35,093 bases of DNA from an uncultured Clostridia bacterium (GTDB lineage Bacteria > Bacillota > Clostridia > Christensenellales > Borkfalkiaceae): the NCBI GenBank assembly GCA_947595585.1, contig CANQET010000016.1, forward strand, positions 1-35,093. The letters run 5' to 3'. The position numbers were made by a program, and so were the translations under genes. Positions within the stretch are counted from its first letter, which is position 1, and each line of letters begins with the position of its first letter. Under the pieces are notes generated by a model that saw nothing but the letters and a program-made list of their open reading frames with translations, ran no database searches and had not been told where the DNA came from. This document shows positions 16,125 through 27,834 of this stretch, one piece after another.

Positions 16125-17031
16125 AGTAGTCCAATGTCTCCTCCGCGGCCTGTTCGATCGAAGACGGCGCAAGGAGCTTAAGGCCCTGCGTCCGCTTGAA
16201 GAATGTGATCTGCCGCTTTGCGTAATTGCGTGTATTTTGCGCTATGCGAGCTATTACGTCTGGCATAGTACTTAAATTATTGCCGTTTTTCAAGAATTCG
16301 ACGACCTCTTTGTACCCGATCGCCTGCATACTCTGCGCCGTCGCGGGCACGCCGCTTTGCAAAAGGCCGCGGACTTCTTCCAAAAGTCCCGCTTCGAACA
16401 TCCCCTTCACGCGCGCATCGATCCGCCGATAGAGCTCCTCGCGGGGATAATCGAAAGATACGGCGCAGAAGGGATAGCGGGCGACGTCTCCATCGTTTTG
16501 GGCGGATTTCTTCTTGCCCGTAAGCTCATAGATCTCGAGGGCGCGGATGACCCGCTTCGTGTCGTTCTCGTGCAGTTTTTCGGCGCTCTCGGGGTCGACG
16601 AGCGCAAGCCGCGCGTGCAGGGCGTGCTTCCCCTCTGTCTCGAGAAGATCCGCGTATTTATTTCGGATCGCCTCCGAGGCGGGGGCGTCGCCGAAAGCAT
16701 GGCGGTATAAGATCGCGTTGAGATAGAACCCCGTTCCGCCGCAGAGCACGGGCGTCTTGCCGCGGGAGAGGATATCTTCGACGACGGGCAGCGCCATCCG
16801 CTCGAAATCGCTCACCGAAAAGGCCTCTTTGGGGTCTGCGATGTCGATCATGTGGTGGACGACCCCCTGCCGTTCGCGCATATCGGGCTTGGCAGTGCCG
16901 ATATCCAGTCCGCGGTAGATCTGAAAGGCGTCGCAGGAGACGACTTCCCCTCCGAGGCGCTGCGCACAGGCCACAGAGAGCGCCGTCTTCCCCGATGCGG
17001 TGGGACCGCAGATGACGAGCAGCTTCTTCAT
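16114..17031 (-). CDS. miaA: tRNA dimethylallyltransferase
   Basis: 305 residues, normal length. MiaA adds the dimethylallyl group to N6 of A37 in tRNAs that read UNN codons; MiaB, encoded in the same operon, then methylthiolates the product. The P-loop GPTASGKTALS is at about residues 9-19, followed by SCDAFQIYRGLDIGTAKP and the GGTGFYLNAI motif. The C-terminal NYAKRQITFFKR tRNA-binding stretch is present. The start (MKKLLVICG) overlaps the mutL stop as ATGA. Confidence 0.97.
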   Translation of the reverse strand: MKKLLVICGPTASGKTALSVACAQRLGGEVVSCDAFQIYRGLDIGTAKPDMRERQGVVHHMIDIADPKEAFSVSDFERMALPVVEDILSRGKTPVLCGGTGFYLNAILYRHAFGDAPASEAIRNKYADLLETEGKHALHARLALVDPESAEKLHENDTKRVIRALEIYELTGKKKSAQNDGDVARYPFCAVSFDYPREELYRRIDARVKGMFEAGLLEEVRGLLQSGVPATAQSMQAIGYKEVVEFLKNGNNLSTMPDVIARIAQNTRNYAKRQITFFKRTQGLKLLAPSSIEQAAEETLDYYAK

Positions 17032-18872
17032 ACGATGCGCCGGAAGAGCTTCTCGAGCTCGTAGCGGGTGAGGTGTACGGCGACGGGACGCCCGTGCGGA
17101 CACTTGAGGCCCATATCGCCGTCCATCTTCTCGAGCAGGGAGCGCGCTTCGGCCTCGGTGAGCCTTTCTCCCCCCTTGACCGCCGCTTTGCAGGCCGCGG
17201 AGGCGAGTTTATCCTTCAGAAGATCGGAAAGTTTGATCGCGCGGAGGCTCTCCATCGAGGCGAGCACTTCCCGCAGGAAGGCGGCAAGGTCCATGCCCAT
17301 GAGGTCGGAAGGGACGGCGGAGATCTTGGCGGAAGTTCCGCCGAAATCCTCGATCTCGAAGCCGATCTCCCGCAATATATCGTAATTTTTGGCCAAAAAG
17401 GCGTGTTCCTGCGCATTCAGCTCGGCAACGTAGGGCGCAAGCATGGGCTGGGAGACGACTTCCCGCGCCTCCCACTTCGCACGGAGACGGTCGTAGATGA
17501 GCCGCTCGTGGGCGGCATGCTGGTCGACGATATAGGCGTCGTCGCCGCATTCGTAGATGAGATAGGTGCGGAAGAGCTCCCCTTTGAAGGTGAGCGCGGC
17601 GGGGTCGATGCGCTGCTGCTTTTTCGCCTCCTCCTGTGCGCGGAGGAACTTTTGATTCTCCTCGAAGGCGTCTTCCTGCTGCGGCTTGGGAGAGCGCACT
17701 TCGAAGATGGGCGCGGGCGGCATACGGCGGGGGACCGTGGAAGTCCCGGCGTAGAGCGGGATATCGAAGCCGAGCTCCTTCTTGGCCTCGGCATAGCTCA
17801 TCGTGGGCTGCGGGACGGGGCTTGAGGAAGTTGCGGGCGCGGGAGCGGGTCTTTCCTGCCCTGCCTCGGGGACGACGTACTCGAGCGCACGCGAATTGCC
17901 GTCGAGCACGGCGGAGACGATGGAATAGACGTTCCCGTAGATGAGATTGTGGTCTGCGAAGCGCACATCCGCCTTATTGGGGTGGACGTTGACATCGACG
18001 ATCTCGGGCGGAACATCCAAAAAGAGCACATAGAAGGGGTATTGCCGCTTCATGAGATAGCTCGCATAGGCATTGGAGATGGCCGAGGCGAGCGTTTGGT
18101 TGACGACATACCGCCCGTTCACGAACATGCTCTGATAGGTGCGATTGGGCTTGGAATAGTTGCGATCGCCGATGAAGCCCGAAAGGCGAAGGCCGTGCTT
18201 GGCGGCGTCGATCTCGCAGAGATGGGAGAGCACTTCGGCACCGTAGACGGCGGCAAGGGCGGCGCGAAGGCCGTCGCCATAGGAACGGTAGCGGATCTTG
18301 CCGTTGACTTCGAAGCAAAACGCGATCTCGGGGCGGGAGAGGATGAAGCGGGCGATCATCGCCGCGACGTCCCCCTCCTCGTGACTATCGGATTTGAGGA
18401 ATTTGAGGCGGGCGGGCGTGTTGAAGAAGAGGTTCTTGACGAGGACCCTCGTCCCGTTCGCACCTGCGGCGGGCGTGAGCTGCCCCAAGACGCCCCCGCA
18501 GCAAGTGAGCGCGTAGGCTTCGCCCGAGGCGGTCTTGGAGACGATCTCCATCTCGGAGACGGCGGCGATCGAGGCGAGCGCTTCCCCGCGGAAACCGAGC
18601 GTTTTCACGCCGAAAAGATCTTCGGCGCGCGAGAGCTTGCTCGTCGCGTGCGGGGCGTAGGCGTTTTGCAGATCTTCCTTTTCGATGCCGCAGCCGTTAT
18701 CGGTGACGCGGATGAGGGACTTCCCCCCCGCTTCGATCTCAACGGTAATTTCTGTGGCACCCGCATCGATCGCGTTTTCCACGAGTTCTTTGACGACCGA
18801 ATACGGGCGGTCGACGACTTCCCCCGCCGCGATCTTGTTGTAGATATCTGCGGTCAAAAGATGGATCTTCAC
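17028..18872 (-). CDS. mutL: DNA mismatch repair endonuclease MutL (GTG start)
   Basis: 614 residues. It couples MutS mismatch recognition to strand incision. The N-terminal GHKL ATPase shows IAAGEVVDRP, VKELVENAIDAG, DNGCGI and GFRGEALASI. The C-terminal domain has DQHAAHERLIYD, ACKAAVK and CPHGRP, the metal-binding endonuclease set. The usual DQHA(X)2E(X)4E motif ends in Asp instead of Glu here. An in-frame ATG lies 18 bases upstream, but the GTG at 18872 has a better-placed AAGGAG at eight bases, forms a GTGA overlap with mutS and begins the conserved VKIHLL stretch. A variable Pro/Ala/Gln-rich linker lies near 335-410. Confidence 0.95.
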   Translation of the reverse strand: MKIHLLTADIYNKIAAGEVVDRPYSVVKELVENAIDAGATEITVEIEAGGKSLIRVTDNGCGIEKEDLQNAYAPHATSKLSRAEDLFGVKTLGFRGEALASIAAVSEMEIVSKTASGEAYALTCCGGVLGQLTPAAGANGTRVLVKNLFFNTPARLKFLKSDSHEEGDVAAMIARFILSRPEIAFCFEVNGKIRYRSYGDGLRAALAAVYGAEVLSHLCEIDAAKHGLRLSGFIGDRNYSKPNRTYQSMFVNGRYVVNQTLASAISNAYASYLMKRQYPFYVLFLDVPPEIVDVNVHPNKADVRFADHNLIYGNVYSIVSAVLDGNSRALEYVVPEAGQERPAPAPATSSSPVPQPTMSYAEAKKELGFDIPLYAGTSTVPRRMPPAPIFEVRSPKPQQEDAFEENQKFLRAQEEAKKQQRIDPAALTFKGELFRTYLIYECGDDAYIVDQHAAHERLIYDRLRAKWEAREVVSQPMLAPYVAELNAQEHAFLAKNYDILREIGFEIEDFGGTSAKISAVPSDLMGMDLAAFLREVLASMESLRAIKLSDLLKDKLASAACKAAVKGGERLTEAEARSLLEKMDGDMGLKCPHGRPVAVHLTRYELEKLFRRIV

Positions 18873-21412
18873 TTGAGTTTCTCCTTCCATTCGGATAAGA
18901 CCATGAGCGCCTGCATGGGCGAAAGGGCGTTGACGTCGAGCTCCTTGAGCTCCTCTTTTAAGTCGAAGGTCTCGGGCTCGGGCGCCTCCTCTTCCATCGA
19001 CGGGCGACGGGCTTCGGCACGCTCCAAACTCCGAAGGATGCGCTTTGCGCGGTCGGTGACTTCCGAAGGTACCCCTGCGAGGGCGGCGACTTCCACGCCG
19101 AAACTGCGCGACGCCCCGCCCCGCACGATCTTGCGCAGGAAGACGATGCTTCCGCCGAGTTCGCGCACGTTGATCTTATAGTTCTTTACGCCGTCGAGCT
19201 TGCCCTCGAGCTCGGTGAGTTCGTGGTAGTGGGTGGCAAACAGCGTCTTCGCACGGACCTTTTCGGTGAGATGTTCGATGACGGCCCATGCGATCGAGAG
19301 GCCGTCGAAGGTGCTCGTCCCCCGCCCCACTTCATCGAGGATGAGAAGACTTCTCGCCGTGGCACAGCGCAAGATGTTGGCGACCTCGGTCATCTCGACC
19401 ATGAAGGTACTGCGGTCGAGGATGAGGTTGTCGCTTGCGCCGATGCGGGTGAAGATGCGGTCGCAGAGCGGGATCTCGGCACGTTTTGCGGGGACGAAGC
19501 AGCCGATATGCGCCATGAAGACGATGAGGGCGACCTGCCGAAGATAGGTGGACTTCCCCGCCATATTCGGCCCGGTGATGATCATCGTGCGATTGTCTTT
19601 GCCGTCTAAGAGGCAGTCGTTGGGAACGAAGCGCTCCTTGGAGATCGCCTCGACGACGGGGTGCCTGCCCTCTTCGATGACGAGCGCCCCCTCTTCCTTG
19701 AGTACGGGACGGCAATACCTATTCTCCTTGGCGACGACCGCGAGCGCAGTGAAGCAATCGAGATCGGCGACGGCGGCGGCGATGCGGCGCAGGAGAGCGA
19801 TGTTGCGGGTGAGGATCTCCGCGATCTCCGAAAAGAGATGTTCTTCGAGCCGCCCCGCTTCCTCTTCGCTGCCGAGGATGCTCGCCTCGAGCTTTTTGAG
19901 CTCCTCGCTCGTGTAGCGTTCCCCCGTGGAGAGGGTCTGTTTGCGCGTATATTCATAGGGAACGCGGTCTTTGAAGGAATTGCTGACTTCGATATAGTAG
20001 CCGAAGACGCGGTTATACCCCACTTTGAGCGTACGGATGCCCGTGCGTTCGCGCTCCCGCGCTTCGAGTTTTGCGATGAGTTCGCGACTGTGGTTCTTGA
20101 TGTCGCGCAGTTCGTCGAGCCGTGCGTTGTAGCCTTCGCGGATGAAGCTCCCCTCTCGCTTGGTCGTCGCCATGGGCGAGATCGCGCGGTCCAAAAGATC
20201 GCAGACGGGCTTGGGATCGACGAGATCCTCCGAGATCTTCGCAAGAAGAGAAGAAGAAAAGCCCGAGAGTTGGAACTTGAGATTGGGGACGACGGCAAGG
20301 GACGCCGAGAGTGTGAGGCAGTCCGAAGGTTGGAGATTGCCATTGGAGATCCTGCCCGCAAGGCGTTCGATGTCCTTCACGCCCGAGAGCATATCCGCAA
20401 TGCCCATGCGGACGACGGTCGCCTTGCAGAGTTCATCCACCGCATCAAGCCGTACATCGATCGCGGCGCGATCGGCGAGCGGATGGGTCAGCATCTCCGA
20501 AAGCCGCCGTGCGCCCATGGGCGTCTTCGTCTTCTTGAGCAGCCATAAAAGCGACCCATACGTCCTCCCGTCGGCGTTGTTCTTCAGGATATCGAGGTTA
20601 CGGAGCGCCGTGGGATCGAGCTGCATCATCCCCTCGCTCTCGATAAGGCGCAGGGAAGTGATGTTTTGCAGGGCATGTTTTTGGGTCTCACGCAGGTATT
20701 CGAGCAGTGCCCCGGCGGCGCAGATCGCGGTAGGATGCGCATCCAAGCCGAGGGCGGCCACAGAGGCCGAAAACTGCGTTTCCACACTGTTTTTTGCCTT
20801 GGCATAGCCGAATGCCCACGGAAGATAGCAGGAAAATTTGGGCAGAAGACGAAGCTCGGGGCGATCTTTTGCGGAGAGCAGAAGGGCGTCGTTGCAGACG
20901 ATCTCCACCACGGAGAGGTTGACGAGATCGGAGATGAGCTTCTCGAGGCTCTCCTCTTCGGCGGCGAAGAATTGCCCCGTCGTGATATCCGCCCAAGCGA
21001 GCGCAAGGCCCTCATCGAGCTTGCATCCGCAGGCGATGAAGTTGCTCTTCCCCTCATCGAGAAGATTGCCCTCGATCACCGTCCCCGCCGAGACGACGCG
21101 GATGACGTCGCGATCGACCATGCCCTTGGAGGCCTTCGGATCGGAGAGCTGTTCGCAGATGGCGACGCGCTCCCCCTTTTCAACGAGCTTTTGAATGTAG
21201 AGATCGACGGCATGATAGGGCACGCCGCACATCGGGGCACGCTCCTTGAGCCCGCAATCCCTGCCCGTGAGCGTGAGATCGAGGATCTCGCTCGCCTTGA
21301 CCGCGTCGTCGAAGAACATCTCATAGAAATCGCCGAGACGGTAAAAGACCAAACAATCGGGATATTGCTCCTTGATCTTCTGCCAGTGCTCCATCATGGG
21401 TGAAAGTCCCAT
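18869..21412 (-). CDS. mutS: DNA mismatch repair protein MutS
   Basis: 847 residues, full length. MutS binds mismatches and small loops as a dimer and uses ATP to switch to a sliding clamp. The mismatch-reading motif GDFYEMFF is near residue 30. The connector, lever and clamp domains follow. The ATPase has GPNMAGKSTYLRQ (Walker A), ILDEVGRGTSTFDG (Walker B) and FATHYHEL. The C-terminus has the short dimerisation tail before the stop. The start MGLSPMMEHW has AGAGGT about eight bases upstream, 13 bases after the TIR-LRR gene stop. Confidence 0.97.
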   Translation of the reverse strand: MGLSPMMEHWQKIKEQYPDCLVFYRLGDFYEMFFDDAVKASEILDLTLTGRDCGLKERAPMCGVPYHAVDLYIQKLVEKGERVAICEQLSDPKASKGMVDRDVIRVVSAGTVIEGNLLDEGKSNFIACGCKLDEGLALAWADITTGQFFAAEEESLEKLISDLVNLSVVEIVCNDALLLSAKDRPELRLLPKFSCYLPWAFGYAKAKNSVETQFSASVAALGLDAHPTAICAAGALLEYLRETQKHALQNITSLRLIESEGMMQLDPTALRNLDILKNNADGRTYGSLLWLLKKTKTPMGARRLSEMLTHPLADRAAIDVRLDAVDELCKATVVRMGIADMLSGVKDIERLAGRISNGNLQPSDCLTLSASLAVVPNLKFQLSGFSSSLLAKISEDLVDPKPVCDLLDRAISPMATTKREGSFIREGYNARLDELRDIKNHSRELIAKLEARERERTGIRTLKVGYNRVFGYYIEVSNSFKDRVPYEYTRKQTLSTGERYTSEELKKLEASILGSEEEAGRLEEHLFSEIAEILTRNIALLRRIAAAVADLDCFTALAVVAKENRYCRPVLKEEGALVIEEGRHPVVEAISKERFVPNDCLLDGKDNRTMIITGPNMAGKSTYLRQVALIVFMAHIGCFVPAKRAEIPLCDRIFTRIGASDNLILDRSTFMVEMTEVANILRCATARSLLILDEVGRGTSTFDGLSIAWAVIEHLTEKVRAKTLFATHYHELTELEGKLDGVKNYKINVRELGGSIVFLRKIVRGGASRSFGVEVAALAGVPSEVTDRAKRILRSLERAEARRPSMEEEAPEPETFDLKEELKELDVNALSPMQALMVLSEWKEKLK
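18881..18886 (-). promoter_or_regulatory. Ribosome-binding site that decides the mutL start
   Basis: AAGGAG on the minus strand, eight bases before the GTG at 18872. It overlaps the alternative ATG's first codons, which argues against that ATG. Confidence 0.75.
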
Positions 21413-21425
21413 TTTTTTCTACCTC

Positions 21426-23474
21426 TTATTTCGTGAAAGTAAATTGTATCTTTTTCCAGTTGTCCCCGAAGATCTTCTTGAGTCCAGAATCCGTAAGCCA
21501 ATTTATTTGCTTGGGAATTGTGACTTGAGTAATCGATTTGCATTCGCTGAACGTCTTATCATCAATGGAAGTTATGCTGTCGGGAAGCTTCACTGTCTTG
21601 ATTGCCTGCGGAACATGAATAATTTCTGTTTTTGATTTGTTATATAGTATCCCGTCCTCGCTGCTGTAGTTTGGATTTTCCTCGGCCACACAGATTTTTT
21701 TCAGACAATCACAACCATAGAAAACATCACGTCCGATCGACGTTACGTTTTTGCCGATTGAAATTTCCGTAAGTCCACTACACTTGTAGAATGCACTAAA
21801 TCCGATCGACGTCACGCCGTCATCGATCGTTATGCTTTTTAATCCGCTACAATTGGCAAACGCATACCTGTCAATTGCATTTACGCTTGCGGGAATCGTT
21901 ACGTTCTTAAGTCCATTGCAGAGCGCAAACGCCGAATCGCCAATTCGTATAACGCTGTCTGGTATCTTGCTGTTGTTGCAACCCAAAATCAACGTATTCG
22001 AACGTTTATCGATCAAGCAATCTTGTTCGCTTCGATAAGCGATATTTCCCTCCAAAACTTTAATGCGTTCCCGTCCATTGCAGCCCGTGAATGCTCCGTC
22101 ACCGATCGATGTCACACTATTTGAGATCGTCAAGCAGGGAAGCGTGCTACAATTTTGGAATGCGTTTCCTTCGATTTTGGTCACGTTGTCGGGAATCCGT
22201 ACTTCTTTTACGGTCCCTGTATATTTTATAAGCACACCGCGCTTCACTTGAAATCGTGCGCGCTGTGATGGATGTTTGGTCTTACCGCTATTTTCCGCCT
22301 CGTCGCGCACTATTTGTTCGGCTGTGAGCCATGTTTCCTCTGTCTTTGGCGCTTCGTCCTCCCGCTTTCGCTTTTCCTCCTCCTCGGCCTTCCGCATCAT
22401 GGCGAGAAGTTCTGCGGGAGATAAGTTTGCAGGGGAGGCCGCCGAAGCGCGCTCCCGCTCCATCTGTGCGAGCTTTTCTTTGAGCTCGGAAAACTCCCTG
22501 TTTCGTGCCTCTTCTTCGGCACGGCGCTTTTTTTCTTCCGCCTCGCGGCGGGCCTTGGCGGCAGGCGTGTGACGCTCGACGTAATCGGCAATGGCGGCGT
22601 AGGCCGTGGGCTTGGCAAGGTCGATGCCCTGCAGTTTGCCGTTTCTCCCCGGCAGCTTTTCGATGGGCTTCCCGCGATAGACGAAGGTCACCGCGTCCCG
22701 TTCCTTTTCCTCGTTTGCGATCATCGCCGAGAAGCGGGTATACTCATTCTTCACCCATTTGGTCTTTAAGTACTCCTCATCACTGCATACAATGAGCATG
22801 CACTCGGAAGTGTAGAGGGCGTAGAGAATGTGCGCCTCATAATCCGAGCCCGTACGGCTGCCCATGATCGCTTCCGAATAGAAGGGGGTGTACCCCTTTT
22901 CTTTGAGATAGTTGTAGATACGAAGGGCTTCGTGGCTATCCTGTGTATTGCTGCCATCCTCGGAAGTGACTTTCACGCAGAGGAAGCAGTCGTAATCGAG
23001 GCCGCTCTCTTTGAGCTCTTCGAAGCGGTCCCGAATTTCATCGATCTCCATCGCCCGTTCGCGATAGATGCGCTTCTGCTCCCGCGTGGCGAGCTCTATC
23101 GCCTTAAGATAGTTCTTATCCGTCGAGAAGACCTTCTCGGAGATCTCATGGCAGATGGGTTGCAGACGAGGCGGGTCTGCGACTTCATCCTTGAGATATT
23201 GTACTTTATATGTAGCGAGGGCCATGCCGAAGTAGGCTTCGGGCTCTTCGGGGTCGAGCTCGGCCGCTTTCTGATAGGCGCTTAAGGCATCTTCGAATTT
23301 GCAGGTATCCAAATCGTGCTCGCCCATGCGGAGGAAGGAGAGCGCGGCGGGAGAAGTCTCTTTCTTGGGCACCGTCCATACGTTCTTACAATAGGGGCAA
23401 GTGACGAGCCCGTTTTGCGCCTCCTCCGCCAAGGCGGTGAGCTGCGCTTCGCACGTTTTGCATTTGAAGTCCAT
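21426..23474 (-). CDS. Zinc-ribbon / TPR / TIR / coiled-coil / BspA-type leucine-rich-repeat protein
   Basis: 682 residues, no signal peptide, so cytoplasmic. Order: zinc ribbon (Cys5, Cys8, Cys26, Cys29); one TPR-like helix pair (about 43-90); TIR domain (about 158-300) with DYDCFLCVKV, GYTPFYSE and TKWVKNEYTRF, where Glu244 fits the WVxxE catalytic Glu of NAD-cleaving TIRs such as SARM1; a charged coiled coil (about 305-375); then LRR_5/BspA-like repeats (about 415-655) with AFxxC at 23-residue steps (438, 461; 515, 538, 561, 584) and a final TFSEC at 641. TIR-plus-repeat proteins are often NADase effectors in immunity; that role here is inference. The start has GAGGTG four bases upstream and follows the miaB stop by one base. 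Confidence 0.88.
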   Translation of the reverse strand: MDFKCKTCEAQLTALAEEAQNGLVTCPYCKNVWTVPKKETSPAALSFLRMGEHDLDTCKFEDALSAYQKAAELDPEEPEAYFGMALATYKVQYLKDEVADPPRLQPICHEISEKVFSTDKNYLKAIELATREQKRIYRERAMEIDEIRDRFEELKESGLDYDCFLCVKVTSEDGSNTQDSHEALRIYNYLKEKGYTPFYSEAIMGSRTGSDYEAHILYALYTSECMLIVCSDEEYLKTKWVKNEYTRFSAMIANEEKERDAVTFVYRGKPIEKLPGRNGKLQGIDLAKPTAYAAIADYVERHTPAAKARREAEEKKRRAEEEARNREFSELKEKLAQMERERASAASPANLSPAELLAMMRKAEEEEKRKREDEAPKTEETWLTAEQIVRDEAENSGKTKHPSQRARFQVKRGVLIKYTGTVKEVRIPDNVTKIEGNAFQNCSTLPCLTISNSVTSIGDGAFTGCNGRERIKVLEGNIAYRSEQDCLIDKRSNTLILGCNNSKIPDSVIRIGDSAFALCNGLKNVTIPASVNAIDRYAFANCSGLKSITIDDGVTSIGFSAFYKCSGLTEISIGKNVTSIGRDVFYGCDCLKKICVAEENPNYSSEDGILYNKSKTEIIHVPQAIKTVKLPDSITSIDDKTFSECKSITQVTIPKQINWLTDSGLKKIFGDNWKKIQFTFTK

Positions 23475-23475
23475 A

Positions 23476-24780
23476 TCACACCTCTTCCCCGTAGAGGGAA
23501 ATGCCGTTTGCCGAAGTGATCTTCAGACGGATAAATTCGCCGACGGGGTCCCTTTCACACTTGAAATACCCCATTCTGCCGTATTCATCCCGCCCGAGGT
23601 ACATCTTCTTCTTGGCGTCGTAGTCCTCACAGAGGATCTCGATGGTCTTGCCGACGTATTTCGCGCTCTTGCGGCGGGTCAGTTCGTTGACGAGGGCGAC
23701 GAGGCGGGTGATGCGGTCTTTTGCGACGTCCTCGCCGATCCTCCCCTCCATCTGCGCCGCCTTGGTGCCCGTGCGGGGGGAATAGATGAAGGTGAAGGCC
23801 GAAGCGAAGTCCGCCGCCTCGACGAGGGAAAGCGTCTCTTGGAATTCTTCCTCCGTCTCGGTGGGAAAGGCGACGATGAGGTCGGTCGTGACTTCGCAAT
23901 CGGGGATCTCCCGCCGCAGAAGTGCGAGGTCTTCAAGGTACTTTTCCCGCGTATAACGGCGGTTCATGAGCTGCAAGATCCTGTTGCTGCCCGCCTGCAC
24001 GGGAAGATGCAGATGCTTGCAGATCTTCTTATGCTTTTTCATGACGGCGACGAGTTCGGGCGAAAAATCTTTGGGATGCGACGTCATGAAGCGGACGCGG
24101 AAGTTCCCCTCGATCGAGGCGACCGCATCGAGAAGTTCGGGGAACGTCGTCCCGTCGTCGCCGCGGTAGGAATCCACGTTCTGCCCGAGCAAGGTGATCT
24201 CCTTGTAGCCCTCTTTCACGAGGGCGCGAACTTCCGAAAGGATCTCCTCCTTTCTTCGGGACATCTCCCTGCCCCGTACGTAGGGAACGATGCAATAGGA
24301 GCAGAAGTTGTTGCAGCCGTAGATGATATTCACCCAAGCATTGGGATAGCTCGTCCGCACGGGGGAAATGCCGTCTTCCACCTCTTCCCGCGCCGCGCGT
24401 ACCGAGACGACGGACTTTCTCTCCCGCCGTTTGCGCTCGATGAGGTGCTTGAGCTCGGGTAGGTCGTGCGTCCCGAAAAAGATATCGATAAAGGGAAATT
24501 TCTGCTTGAGATAGGCGGCTTTGCCCTCTTCCTGCACCATGCATCCCCCCACGGCGATGAGAAGCCCCTTCTTCTGCCGCTTGAGCTTTTTGAGGGCGCC
24601 GATGTTGCCGAAGGCGTGGTTTTCGGCGTTTTCGCGGATGCAACAGGTATTGAAGACGATGATATCCGCCTCTTCCGCCGAAGTCGGGGCGTCATACCCC
24701 GCCGCGCGGAGCACGCCCGCGATCTTTTCCGACTCGTGCAGATTCATCTGACAGCCGTATGTGACGATGTGATACTTCAT
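23476..24780 (-). CDS. miaB: tRNA-2-methylthio-N6-dimethylallyladenosine synthase
   Basis: 434 residues. MiaB is a radical SAM methylthiotransferase acting on i6A37, the product of MiaA encoded downstream. The N-terminal UPF0004 domain has the three cluster ligands Cys10, Cys46 and Cys80. The radical SAM motif is YGCNNFCSYC (Cys156, Cys160, Cys163). A TRAM domain closes the protein (VGKTIEILCEDY to LKITSANGISLYGEEV). The ATG overlaps the sirtuin stop as ATGA, and the next gene starts one base after its stop. Confidence 0.96.
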   Translation of the reverse strand: MKYHIVTYGCQMNLHESEKIAGVLRAAGYDAPTSAEEADIIVFNTCCIRENAENHAFGNIGALKKLKRQKKGLLIAVGGCMVQEEGKAAYLKQKFPFIDIFFGTHDLPELKHLIERKRRERKSVVSVRAAREEVEDGISPVRTSYPNAWVNIIYGCNNFCSYCIVPYVRGREMSRRKEEILSEVRALVKEGYKEITLLGQNVDSYRGDDGTTFPELLDAVASIEGNFRVRFMTSHPKDFSPELVAVMKKHKKICKHLHLPVQAGSNRILQLMNRRYTREKYLEDLALLRREIPDCEVTTDLIVAFPTETEEEFQETLSLVEAADFASAFTFIYSPRTGTKAAQMEGRIGEDVAKDRITRLVALVNELTRRKSAKYVGKTIEILCEDYDAKKKMYLGRDEYGRMGYFKCERDPVGEFIRLKITSANGISLYGEEV

Positions 24781-25484
24781 AGTTGGATGGCTCCGAGAAC
24801 TTCTCCGACGTTTTCGCGGATGAGAAGGTCGCATTTTCCGTCGTAGGGGGTGGCGCCGCGGTTGATGAGCACGAGATGTTCTCCGCGGAAGAATTCCAAA
24901 AAGCCCGCTGCGGGGTAGACGGTGAGCGACGTCCCTGCGACGATGAGCGTATCCGCCTGTGCGATGGCTTCGACGGCGCCCGTGACCGTATCCCCGTCGA
25001 GGGGTTCGCCGTAGAGCACGACGTCGGGCTTTATGATGCCGCCGCAGCTGCAGCGGGGGATCCCCTCGCTCTCTGCGATGAAGCGGGCGTCGTAAAACTT
25101 GCCGCATTTTCGGCAATGGTTGCGGTGGATGCTGCCGTGGAGCTCATAGACGCGGCGGGAGCCCGCTGCCTGGTGCAGTCCGTCGATATTCTGGGTGACG
25201 ACGGCGAGGAGCTTGCCCTTCTCTTCGAGCGCGGCGAGCGTCTTGTGGGCGGCGTTGGGCTTCGCCCAAAGGGGAAGCATCTTATCGCGGTAGAAATCAA
25301 AGAACTCCGCGGGGTGCGTATGGAAAAAATCTGCGCTCAGGATGGTTTCGGGCGGATAGGCATATTTGGTGCGATAGAGGCCGTCTTCCGAACGAAAATC
25401 GGGGATCCCGCTCTCCGTGGAGACGCCCGCTCCGCCGAAAAATACGATATGTTTGCTTCTGTCTACGATCTCTTGCAGCGTCAT
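24777..25484 (-). CDS. NAD-dependent protein deacylase (sirtuin)
   Basis: 235 residues, a minimal class with Rossmann fold and zinc module. GAGVSTESGIPDFRS (18-32) and TQNIDGLH (97-104) line the NAD site, His116 in YELHGS is the catalytic base, and Cys124, Cys127, Cys145 and Cys147 bind zinc. It removes acyl groups from lysines using NAD. Being first in the operon, it is read from the promoter at 25506-25534. The intact zinc module and standard length point to a housekeeping CobB-type enzyme more than to a defence SIR2 effector. Confidence 0.94.
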   Translation of the reverse strand: MTLQEIVDRSKHIVFFGGAGVSTESGIPDFRSEDGLYRTKYAYPPETILSADFFHTHPAEFFDFYRDKMLPLWAKPNAAHKTLAALEEKGKLLAVVTQNIDGLHQAAGSRRVYELHGSIHRNHCRKCGKFYDARFIAESEGIPRCSCGGIIKPDVVLYGEPLDGDTVTGAVEAIAQADTLIVAGTSLTVYPAAGFLEFFRGEHLVLINRGATPYDGKCDLLIRENVGEVLGAIQL

Positions 25485-25505
25485 AACTCCCCTCCGTTTT
25501 CCCTA

Positions 25506-25534
25506 ATTATAACATAACAAAGCAAATTTTTCAA
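25506..25534 (-). promoter_or_regulatory. Promoter of the sirtuin-miaB-TIR-mutS-mutL-miaA operon
   Basis: Minus strand TTGAAA (25529-25534), a 17-base spacer, TATAAT (25506-25511). The sirtuin ATG at 25484 has GGAGGGG upstream. I see no other convincing promoter inside the operon. Confidence 0.85.
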
Positions 25535-25587
25535 CCAAACCGCGCGCGGGTGAGAAAATTTTTTGGGAAATTACAAATACTATCTGC

Positions 25588-27834
25588 ATGAAACGCACGC
25601 TCAAGATCTTCTGCCTTATTTTCGGCGTCGCTGCGGTGCTTGCGGCATGCTTTGCCGTCTATGCGATCGTCGTGACGTCGGGCGTAAGCCTCTCCCCCGA
25701 AAAACTCACGCTCGAGACGAACTGTCTGCATCTTTACGACGTCAACGGCGACCGCATCGCCCCGCCTGCACAGAGCGACGTCCCCTTTTCCGAGTTCCCT
25801 TCCCACCTTACGCAGGCCTTTGTCGCCGTCGAAGATAAGCGCTTCTTCCGTCACGGCGGGGTGGATGTTCTGCGCATGGGAAAGGCCGCCCTCAAAAATC
25901 TTGCGAGTTTTTCCTTCCGCGAGGGCGCTTCGACGATCTCGCAGCAGCTCATAAAAAATACCCATCTTACGGGGGAAAAGACGCTGAAGCGCAAGCTGCG
26001 TGAGATCAAACTCACCCGTATGCTCGAGAAAAAATACACCAAAGAGGAGATCCTCGGGCTGTATCTCAATTCCATCTATTTCGGGCACAGCGCCTTCGGG
26101 ATCGGCGAGGCGGCAAGCTTCTATTTCGGCAAACTGCCCAAAGATCTCACCCCTGCGGAGAGTGCCCTCCTTGCCGCGCTCGTGCGGTCTCCCAACCGCT
26201 ATTCGCCCTTCAAAAATGCAGAAAAGTGCCTTGCAAGGCGCAATTTCGTGCTTTCGCTCATGGAGGCGCAGGGCTACCTTTCCCCCGAAGAATTTCGGGC
26301 GGCCGAAGAAGAGCCACTGCCCGCTTCGCCGCATGCGCGGGCGGGCTCGGACGCCTACTTTGCCCTTGCGGCGGAGGAGGTCTCGGCGCGGTTTCCCGAG
26401 ATCGGCGCGGGAGAGCTCGGCGCGCTCGAAGTGTATACGGCATTCGACCCCGCCCTCCAGAAGAGTCTCGAACATTCGGTGGAGTGCGATCTTACGGCCG
26501 TCGTCATGAAAAAAGACGGCACCGTGCGTGCGCTCACGGCCTCGAGCGGATGTCTAAAGCGCCAGCCCGCCTCCACGATCAAGCCACTGCTCGTCTATGC
26601 GCCGGCAATCGAAGAAAACCTCATCTCCCCCGCCACGCCCATCGCGGATATTCGGATGGATTTCGGCGGCTACATGCCCGACGACGCGGGCGGGGCAAGC
26701 GGAAAATATATGAGCGTGCGGCGGGCGCTTTCGGGGAGCGTCAACATCCCCGCCGTGCGCATTCTGAACAGCCTCGGCGTGGAAAAGGGCGCCGCATACC
26801 TCGGGCGGATGGGCCTCGAAGTGGAGGCGGGCGACCGTACGCTCGCCTTGGCGCTCGGGGGCATGCGGGAGGGCTTCGACCTCGTCTCCCTCACAAACGG
26901 CTATACCGCGCTCGCGAGCCAAGGGATGTATACCCCCTGTTCGACGATCCTGAGCATCCGATCGCCCAAGGGAGAGATCTACAAAAAGACGGATACGCCG
27001 CGGCGGATCTTCTCGGAGGAGACCGCGTTTCTCGTCTCGGATATGCTGCATACGGCGGCCACCGAGGGCACGGCCCGAAAACTCAAGTCCCTCCCCTTTT
27101 GGGTGGCGGCGAAGACGGGCACAAGCGAGGGCGCGCGGGGCAATCTCGACGCCTATACGATCGCCTATACGACGGAGGATATCGTCGGCGTCTGGCTGGG
27201 CAATGCCGACCATTCCCCCATCGACGCGACGGGCGGAGGGCTTGCCGCAAACCTCGCAAAAAGCATCCTCGAAGCGCTCTACGCGAACGCAGCGCCCGCA
27301 TCCCCCAAGGCGCCGCACGGCGTAATACGCGCCGCATACGACGGCGAGGAATACGAAAAAAATCACAGGCTCATGCGTGCCGACCCCGATGCGCCCCGCC
27401 TTCTCGAGCCCGAAGAATACTTCAAAGCCGATGCCCTGCCCAAAGAGGTCTCCACGCGATTTTCCCGCCCGACCATCCAAAAACCGCAGATTTTCGTGAA
27501 AAATGGCACCGTTTCCATAGTATTATGCCAGACAGAGTACTATGATTACATCATAAAAAGAGAAAATCGCGGCGAAATCGCCACGATCTACGAGGGTGCC
27601 TTCCGCCCCTGCATCTGCGATAGTTCGGTGCGTGCGGGAGAAAGTTACAGCTATGTTGTGATCCCCGTCTATGCGGGGCATGAGGGCGTACCCATCGAGC
27701 TCGAGCGCGTCTTCCTTCCCGCGGCGGCGCCACCCGAAGATTGGTGGGATCAGAGCGTGATGCGCTCTACGCTACCAAGCGCCTCATCGACGAGGGCCTC
27801 TATCTCGAGCTTCCCCTCCTCGCGTTCGATGTAA
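25588..27834 (+). CDS. Class A penicillin-binding protein (bifunctional peptidoglycan synthase)
   Basis: 748 residues. One N-terminal membrane anchor (about 6-30) is followed by a GT51 transglycosylase with Glu82 in VEDKRFFRHGGVD, GASTISQQLIKN, KRKLREI and EILGLYLNSIYFG. The transpeptidase has Ser329-T-I-Lys332, Ser384-V-Asn386 and Lys509-T-G-T, so both activities look intact. It polymerises and cross-links peptidoglycan outside the membrane. A beta-rich C-terminal domain (about 630-718) follows. The last 28 codons are antisense to the 3' end of thiI, giving a low-complexity Ser/Arg tail. The ATG lacks a good ribosome site. The layout resembles PBP1A/1C-type enzymes; the exact subclass is uncertain. 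Confidence 0.92.
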   Translation: MKRTLKIFCLIFGVAAVLAACFAVYAIVVTSGVSLSPEKLTLETNCLHLYDVNGDRIAPPAQSDVPFSEFPSHLTQAFVAVEDKRFFRHGGVDVLRMGKAALKNLASFSFREGASTISQQLIKNTHLTGEKTLKRKLREIKLTRMLEKKYTKEEILGLYLNSIYFGHSAFGIGEAASFYFGKLPKDLTPAESALLAALVRSPNRYSPFKNAEKCLARRNFVLSLMEAQGYLSPEEFRAAEEEPLPASPHARAGSDAYFALAAEEVSARFPEIGAGELGALEVYTAFDPALQKSLEHSVECDLTAVVMKKDGTVRALTASSGCLKRQPASTIKPLLVYAPAIEENLISPATPIADIRMDFGGYMPDDAGGASGKYMSVRRALSGSVNIPAVRILNSLGVEKGAAYLGRMGLEVEAGDRTLALALGGMREGFDLVSLTNGYTALASQGMYTPCSTILSIRSPKGEIYKKTDTPRRIFSEETAFLVSDMLHTAATEGTARKLKSLPFWVAAKTGTSEGARGNLDAYTIAYTTEDIVGVWLGNADHSPIDATGGGLAANLAKSILEALYANAAPASPKAPHGVIRAAYDGEEYEKNHRLMRADPDAPRLLEPEEYFKADALPKEVSTRFSRPTIQKPQIFVKNGTVSIVLCQTEYYDYIIKRENRGEIATIYEGAFRPCICDSSVRAGESYSYVVIPVYAGHEGVPIELERVFLPAAAPPEDWWDQSVMRSTLPSASSTRASISSFPSSRSM

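Follow-up and report, generated by a model that had tools for sequence, protein, structure and literature searches.

Putative TIR-LRR receptors with exchanged tails at operon sites of Clostridia: the gene between miaB and mutS

Plant TIR-NB-LRR receptors such as RUN1 and RPP1 have a TIR domain with a W-x3-E motif at one end and a leucine-rich repeat (LRR) sensor at the other, and they form large gene families. TIR effectors are also known in bacterial defence, usually with a few fixed partners. The same overall arrangement as in the plant receptors is found in a protein encoded between miaB and mutS in an uncultured Clostridia bacterium (contig CANQET010000016.1 of assembly GCA_947595585.1, analysed as a window of 35,093 nucleotides). 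From its sequence and predicted structure, this TIR-LRR protein appears to belong to a family of cytosolic TIR receptors with diversified tails that are probably NAD-cleaving and defensive, a reading to which we give a probability of about 0.53. The surprise lies in the modular turnover of these proteins and in their operon sites; TIR sensor-effectors are themselves already known.

The family differs from the plant receptors in lacking NB-ARC, in having LRRs of the BspA type, in carrying a zinc ribbon and tetratricopeptide repeats (TPR) before the TIR domain, and in that non-LRR tails are common. The single-gene TIR-STAND-TPR defence of P4-like satellites also joins a TIR effector and a repeat sensor in one protein. 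In contrast to it, the present proteins lack the STAND NTPase and are encoded at chromosomal housekeeping-operon sites (PMC9122126). By its predicted domains, the TIR-LRR protein has a coil and LRR tail after the TIR domain where SPARTA TIR-APAZ proteins have APAZ, and with miaB and mutS as neighbours the TIR-LRR gene has neither an Argonaute gene, as in SPARTA, nor a ThsA gene, as in Thoeris, beside it. A search for STALD (PF18185) gave no match in the source genome, and none in the control genomes either. Sensors of bacterial conflict systems diversified by diversity-generating retroelements follow the same idea of an effector with a diversified sensor, while tail exchange and head conversion are the processes seen here (PMC10907252).

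BspA-type LRR surface proteins (4h09, 4gt6, PcpA) share the LRR_5 repeats, but while many of the LRR proteins inspected in relatives start with what by eye is a lipoprotein-like signal peptide, the TIR-LRR protein does not and has a TIR head instead. Toll-like receptors have N-terminal extracellular LRRs, a transmembrane (TM) helix and a C-terminal TIR domain, whereas here the TIR domain precedes the LRRs and no TM-like segment is present. A surface protein was ruled out by the missing export signal, and a nucleotide-binding LRR receptor (NLR) by the missing NTPase. A phage- or plasmid-borne gene was likewise rejected, as searches of viral contigs (scanned with two patterns), plasmids and phages gave no relative. 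The open-licence literature, to which the search was confined to the exclusion of subscription papers, gave no bacterial zinc-ribbon-TPR-TIR family with exchangeable tails.

The TIR head and its family

The architecture proposed in the original prediction, i.e. a zinc ribbon, TPR-like helices, a TIR domain with Glu244, a coiled coil and BspA-type LRRs, was borne out by Pfam, alignment and AlphaFold (Table 1). The protein matched LRR_5 with 160 bits, TIR_2 (PF13676) with 41.8 bits (cut-off 28) and TPR_11 with 28.7 bits (cut-off 26.8), while the zinc ribbon matches were below the Pfam cut-off only. The absence of an NB-ARC switch likewise held, as Pfam gave no NTPase family at E≤1, and the predicted coil occupies the place of NB-ARC or STAND. 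None of the PADLOC 2.0.0 models matched the protein (best E 0.31).

AlphaFold modelled the full-length protein with a mean predicted local distance difference test score (pLDDT) of 86.9 and a predicted template modelling score (pTM) of 0.56, and the head by itself with 93.6 and 0.90, respectively. The TIR fold of about residues 158-304, for which a predicted structure had been suggested as a check, is confirmed at the level of the model: structure alignment of the head gave a TIR fold, with SPARTA TIRs as the top rows. Foldseek with the full-length model ranked LRR structures first and placed TIRs at E about 0.01, and a profile search of solved structures gave RUN1 and RPV1 alone, each as a weak match (RUN1 E 0.086).

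A protein database search with residues 1-345 gave 401 homologues, and the alignment and tail classes refer to the 120 of these that are listed. Trp240, Glu244, Ser200 and Glu201 are invariant in all 120. Cysteines 8, 26 and 29 are kept in every row with a residue there, and cysteine 5 in 115 of 118. According to a hydropathy rule there is no TM-like segment in the head or tail of the TIR-LRR protein, and none in residues 1-150 of any listed homologue, i.e. no N-terminal export signal. Simple motif rules assigned LRR tails to 44 homologues and TM-like tails to 59, while four had both and 13 neither. The Pfam domains found in the homologues include LRR_5, TPR, the L7/L12 C-terminal domain, 4Fe-4S, M23, Sel1 and a second TIR family. 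In three proteins (P0037, P0041, P0109) the TIR head is joined to a domain of the ribosomal L7/L12 C-terminal type, and the source name 'ribosomal protein L7/L12' of the latter two looks like a misannotation.

Nine genes of the source genome, which is 1.69 Mb in size and 97% complete, together give ten TIR_2 matches. Eight of these genes, including the miaB-mutS gene, share a constant head comprising the first ~305-370 residues, with 58-100% identity. The ninth encodes a zinc-ribbon, double-TIR protein and is found between trmFO and hslV (L041:5375-6907). Within the order, the head matched at E≤1e-20 in 33 of 248 genomes, and its profile matched in two of 398 genomes drawn evenly across the phylum, both counts including the source genome. 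The full-length protein matched in 58 of 61 genomes (own and relatives) at E≤0.001, but many of the listed rows are due to the LRRs alone. By title, nearly all of 48 named loci come from Clostridia or Clostridiales bins, with one from Bacilli and one from Christensenella. Lapin, the French word for rabbit, is the label on most of them, which does not by itself show the host. The source bacterium is probably from an animal gut. Some starts in the gene calls of the loci are too short (e.g. L097, L108), and the 62 matches include fragments.

Exchange of tails and gene conversion among heads

Comparison of the genes shows that tails have been exchanged between family members. The TIR-LRR gene and a solitary paralogue on contig C5 share the head block given in Table 1, while blastn gave no match beyond it in the rest of the two genes or the compared flanks. 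For the remaining close pairs, the main block of head similarity stops at nt 905-1106, which corresponds to the TIR end or the coil, and the LRR tails add short matches of 30-264 nt. Among 53 genes, left after dropping short heads or tails, early-ending heads, L142 and L143, 15 pairs have heads that are at least 80% identical; only one of these has tails of at least 60% identity, two are intermediate, and 12 have tails of at most 50% identity, including three in which no alignment covered half of the tail. One homologue (P0002) has a head 98% identical to that of the TIR-LRR gene and a different tail, and may represent the same locus in another strain.

The pairs L099/L141 and L116/L118 are exceptions in having related tails. 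The former come from two bins and both lie beside a ruvX-like gene; their tails and downstream DNA are 93.8% identical and their heads 74%, with a dS of 0.10 for the tail against 1.0 for the head. At the upp-rpsB interval, the gene of L115 is LRR-tailed and that of L125 TPR/membrane-tailed; their heads are 79% identical, and their tails gave no alignment. Similarly, the head gene at the ruvA-ruvB site is LRR-tailed in the source genome and membrane-tailed in L134 and L150 (the tail of L150 as judged by eye). In another genome (G002) this site contains a headless, LRR-only open reading frame (ORF) of 265 aa (L157:694-1491). The GC content at third codon positions (GC3) of the TIR-LRR gene is 0.48 in the tail (gene nt 1120 on) and 0.72 in the head, compared to 0.77 for mutS and 0.79 for miaB. 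Across its seven paralogues in the genome, the head-tail contrast ranges from none to about equally large.

The analysis also shows gene conversion among three of the head copies of the source genome, those at miaB-mutS, at ruvA-ruvB and at the solitary site. Their pairwise identity varies from 63% to 100% between successive 60-nt steps, and the identity runs on 76 silent polymorphic codons exceed those of shuffled data in each of the three pairs (p 0.0018, 0.0003 and 0.0001; 10,000 shuffles per pair). The longest exact stretches that the TIR-LRR head has in common with two paralogues are 162 and 245 nt. dN/dS was 0.04-0.23 across the eight head pairs compared.

Operon sites and possible function

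Head genes recur at particular sites. mutS was matched in 36 of 37 genomes, and in the 30 loci given miaB directly precedes mutS in 27, with a gap of at most 68 nt in 24 and of 295-427 nt in three. A head gene lies between them in the other three (the source genome, G013 and G003, where the continuity of the gene is inferred, as two contigs both end inside it). Two more loci (L110, L127) bring the number of species with this position to five, which answers the earlier question about its occurrence in related genomes. A random recent insert was rejected, given this occupation in five species and the scattered positions of the four that are on a MutS tree. As the occupied genomes do not form a clade, loss, repeated insertion and transfer are not separable at this site. 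Two sister genomes (G006 and G007; loci L056 and L062) carry inserts between miaB and mutS, of 295 and 405 nt, that have some sequence in common. ruvB was matched in all 37 genomes, and of 30 loci given ruvA is adjacent in 25, a head gene intervenes in two (the source genome and G010), the LRR-only ORF in one, and no ruvA was found in the remaining two; L134 brings the species that have a head gene here to three. The assessment of empty sites covered miaB-mutS and ruvA-ruvB.

Other sites are purM-purN (L097 with two head genes, L104, L106 and L112, both partners being seen only in L097 and L106), a ComEB-like deaminase gene (L098, L102, L116, L118), gltX-thyA (L096, L100), prmC-prfA (L142, L143, with distant heads), the position before fhs (L119 with two head genes, L120) or before a ruvX-like gene (L099, L113, L141), and, more loosely, upp-rpsB (L115, L125; 192-1156 nt to rpsB). 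Solitary and divergent head genes occur as well. The names gltX, thyA, purM, purN (partial), ruvA, ruvB, trmFO, hslV, prmC, fhs, prfA and rpsB were assigned with NCBIfam at one locus each, and comEB by a match below the cut-off. Site homologues in other loci were named by eye, as were upp and the neighbours called ruvX-like and isomerase-like here; these two neighbours had no NCBIfam match at E≤1e-30. For 26 of 54 heads the nearest relative is informative (genomes with at least two heads, labelled sites with at least two heads, SPFH cluster excluded). It comes from the same genome for 12 of these, against 1.5 expected (2000 shuffles), and from the same site for eight, against 3.4 expected (p 0.03). 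Vertical inheritance and spread within genomes thus both occur, and the head tree follows no single rule.

Eight loci (L045 of the source genome, L103, L108, L121, L123, L130, L131, L133) combine head genes with some or all parts of a cluster encoding an SPFH/double-zinc-ribbon protein, a Snf7-like coiled coil, a tandem AAA ATPase and a zinc-ribbon trypsin-like protease. The members were grouped by BLAST, with Pfam run on those of L045, L121, L123 and L130. This cluster may be the older context of the head genes.

In the mechanism proposed for the receptors, the tail, here the LRRs, would bind a ligand, most likely a component of a phage or another invader. Phage would be the likeliest trigger because those bacterial TIR systems that have been studied well serve in defence against phages (PMC9122126). 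Since there is no NTPase, activation would be by ligand-driven clustering of the heads, assisted by the coil and the TPR. The clustered TIRs would cleave NAD+, causing depletion or giving a signalling product, and the cell would then arrest or die. According to a review, prokaryotic TIRs require the glutamate and their activity is enhanced by crowding (PMC7282519), but a conserved glutamate does not prove activity (PMC7075850). Gene conversion would hold the effector head uniform while the tails alter what is sensed, and the most likely role of the operon site is to keep the gene steadily expressed with no promoter of its own, not to report on the state of repair or of tRNA. More tentatively, the whole could be a chromosomal repertoire of innate receptors, in which conversion-homogenised TIR heads are joined at a repetitive coil to exchangeable tails (LRR, TPR-membrane, L7/L12-like and others), and intergenic sites of housekeeping operons act as fixed expression sites, the contents of which are replaced from one species to another. 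If so, this would be a bacterial counterpart of the expanded TIR-LRR receptor families, with up to eight heads per genome and no NTPase switch, and with receptor genes placed in operons that a search for defence islands would pass over. The family makes the origin of receptor diversity in bacteria testable.

The TIR heads might instead act together with the SPFH, Snf7-like, AAA ATPase and trypsin-like proteins in a module for envelope or membrane stress, the LRR members being dispersed sensors of internal damage. The eight loci with a whole or partial cluster and the TM-like tail segments of 63 of the 120 listed homologues are in favour of this, but the miaB-mutS gene and the other operon-site genes listed have no cluster neighbours, most of these operon-site genes are LRR-tailed without TM-like segments, and the Snf7 match is weak and below its cut-off; we consider it unlikely. 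Slightly less probable still is a head that only oligomerises or recruits partners, without NADase activity, and tails that are adaptors for protein interactions. A match to MyD88 shifts weight in this direction and speaks against NAD-cleaving receptors, while the four invariant residues and the SPARTA TIRs at the top of the structural rows argue against a mere scaffold.

The original prediction suggested that the protein could be an NADase responding to damage, phage or tRNA/repair status. Taken as sensing of DNA damage, mismatch repair or tRNA modification by way of the operon, it is consistent with the recurrence at miaB-mutS in five species, and several other sites flank repair, nucleotide or translation genes. 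A specific tie of this kind is nevertheless improbable, since the same heads are found beside unrelated genes and alone, seven of them elsewhere in the source genome, and since miaB and mutS lie directly together in most of the loci examined. Finally, the combinations of heads and tails could be chimeras of near-identical repeats from assembly or binning of short-read metagenomes. This explanation is retained because the exact stretches shared by the TIR-LRR head and its paralogues are long enough to trouble short-read assembly, and several contigs end inside heads. However, it is very improbable, as the overall differences of 8-13% among the three head copies fall in alternating tracts, for which one join would not account, and the same sites are occupied in bins from other samples and species.

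The gene run around the TIR-LRR gene

Table 1. Features of the TIR-LRR gene and its surroundings (positions in the window)
Feature	Positions	Strand	Basis
TIR-LRR gene, 682 aa	21426..23474	minus	
Cys4 zinc ribbon (C5, C8, C26, C29)	23388..23462	minus	Pfam below cut-off, alignment, AlphaFold
TPR-like helices, about residues 42-88	23211..23351	minus	Pfam, AlphaFold
TIR domain, about residues 158-304	22563..23003	minus	Pfam, AlphaFold, structure alignment
Glu244 codon, aligned with Glu of RUN1 W-x3-E	22743..22745	minus	
Charged coiled-coil linker, about residues 304-373; paralogue head similarity ends here	22356..22565	minus	
BspA-type LRR tail, about residues 408-655	21510..22253	minus	
C-terminal cap (LKKIFG...IQFTFT), similar in other LRR-tailed members	21429..21509	minus	
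Head block common to TIR-LRR gene and contig C5 paralogue	22371..23471	minus	92.4% DNA identity, gene nt 4-1104
Promoter-like site TTGAAA-17-TATAAT upstream of sir2	25506..25534	minus	consensus match only, 11/12
Sir2-type NAD-dependent deacylase, first gene of run	24777..25484	minus	NCBIfam search
miaB, upstream neighbour	23476..24780	minus	NCBIfam cut-off passed
mutS, downstream neighbour	18869..21412	minus	NCBIfam cut-off passed
mutL	17028..18890	minus	NCBIfam cut-off passed
miaA	16114..17031	minus	NCBIfam cut-off passed

The position and spacing predicted for the gene agree with the annotation, although the minus strand had been left unstated: one base separates it from the miaB stop, which ends at 23476, and 13 bases from the mutS start at 21412 (an alternative start at 21397 is possible). 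As predicted, no promoter of its own is visible; no sigma-70-like site was found on the minus strand between the gene and 25506. The only minus-strand promoter-like site in 21300..25700 is the one before sir2. With three promoter-like sites in the whole scan against 2.5 expected, a single transcript sir2-miaB-TIR-mutS-mutL-miaA is plausible. An LRR protein of 461 aa without a TIR head (L080; contig C4 of G000, about 65.5-66.5 kb) has a C-terminal cap similar to that of the TIR-LRR protein and a different N-terminus. The run brings together genes for a Sir2-type NAD-dependent deacylase and a TIR domain predicted to cleave NAD.
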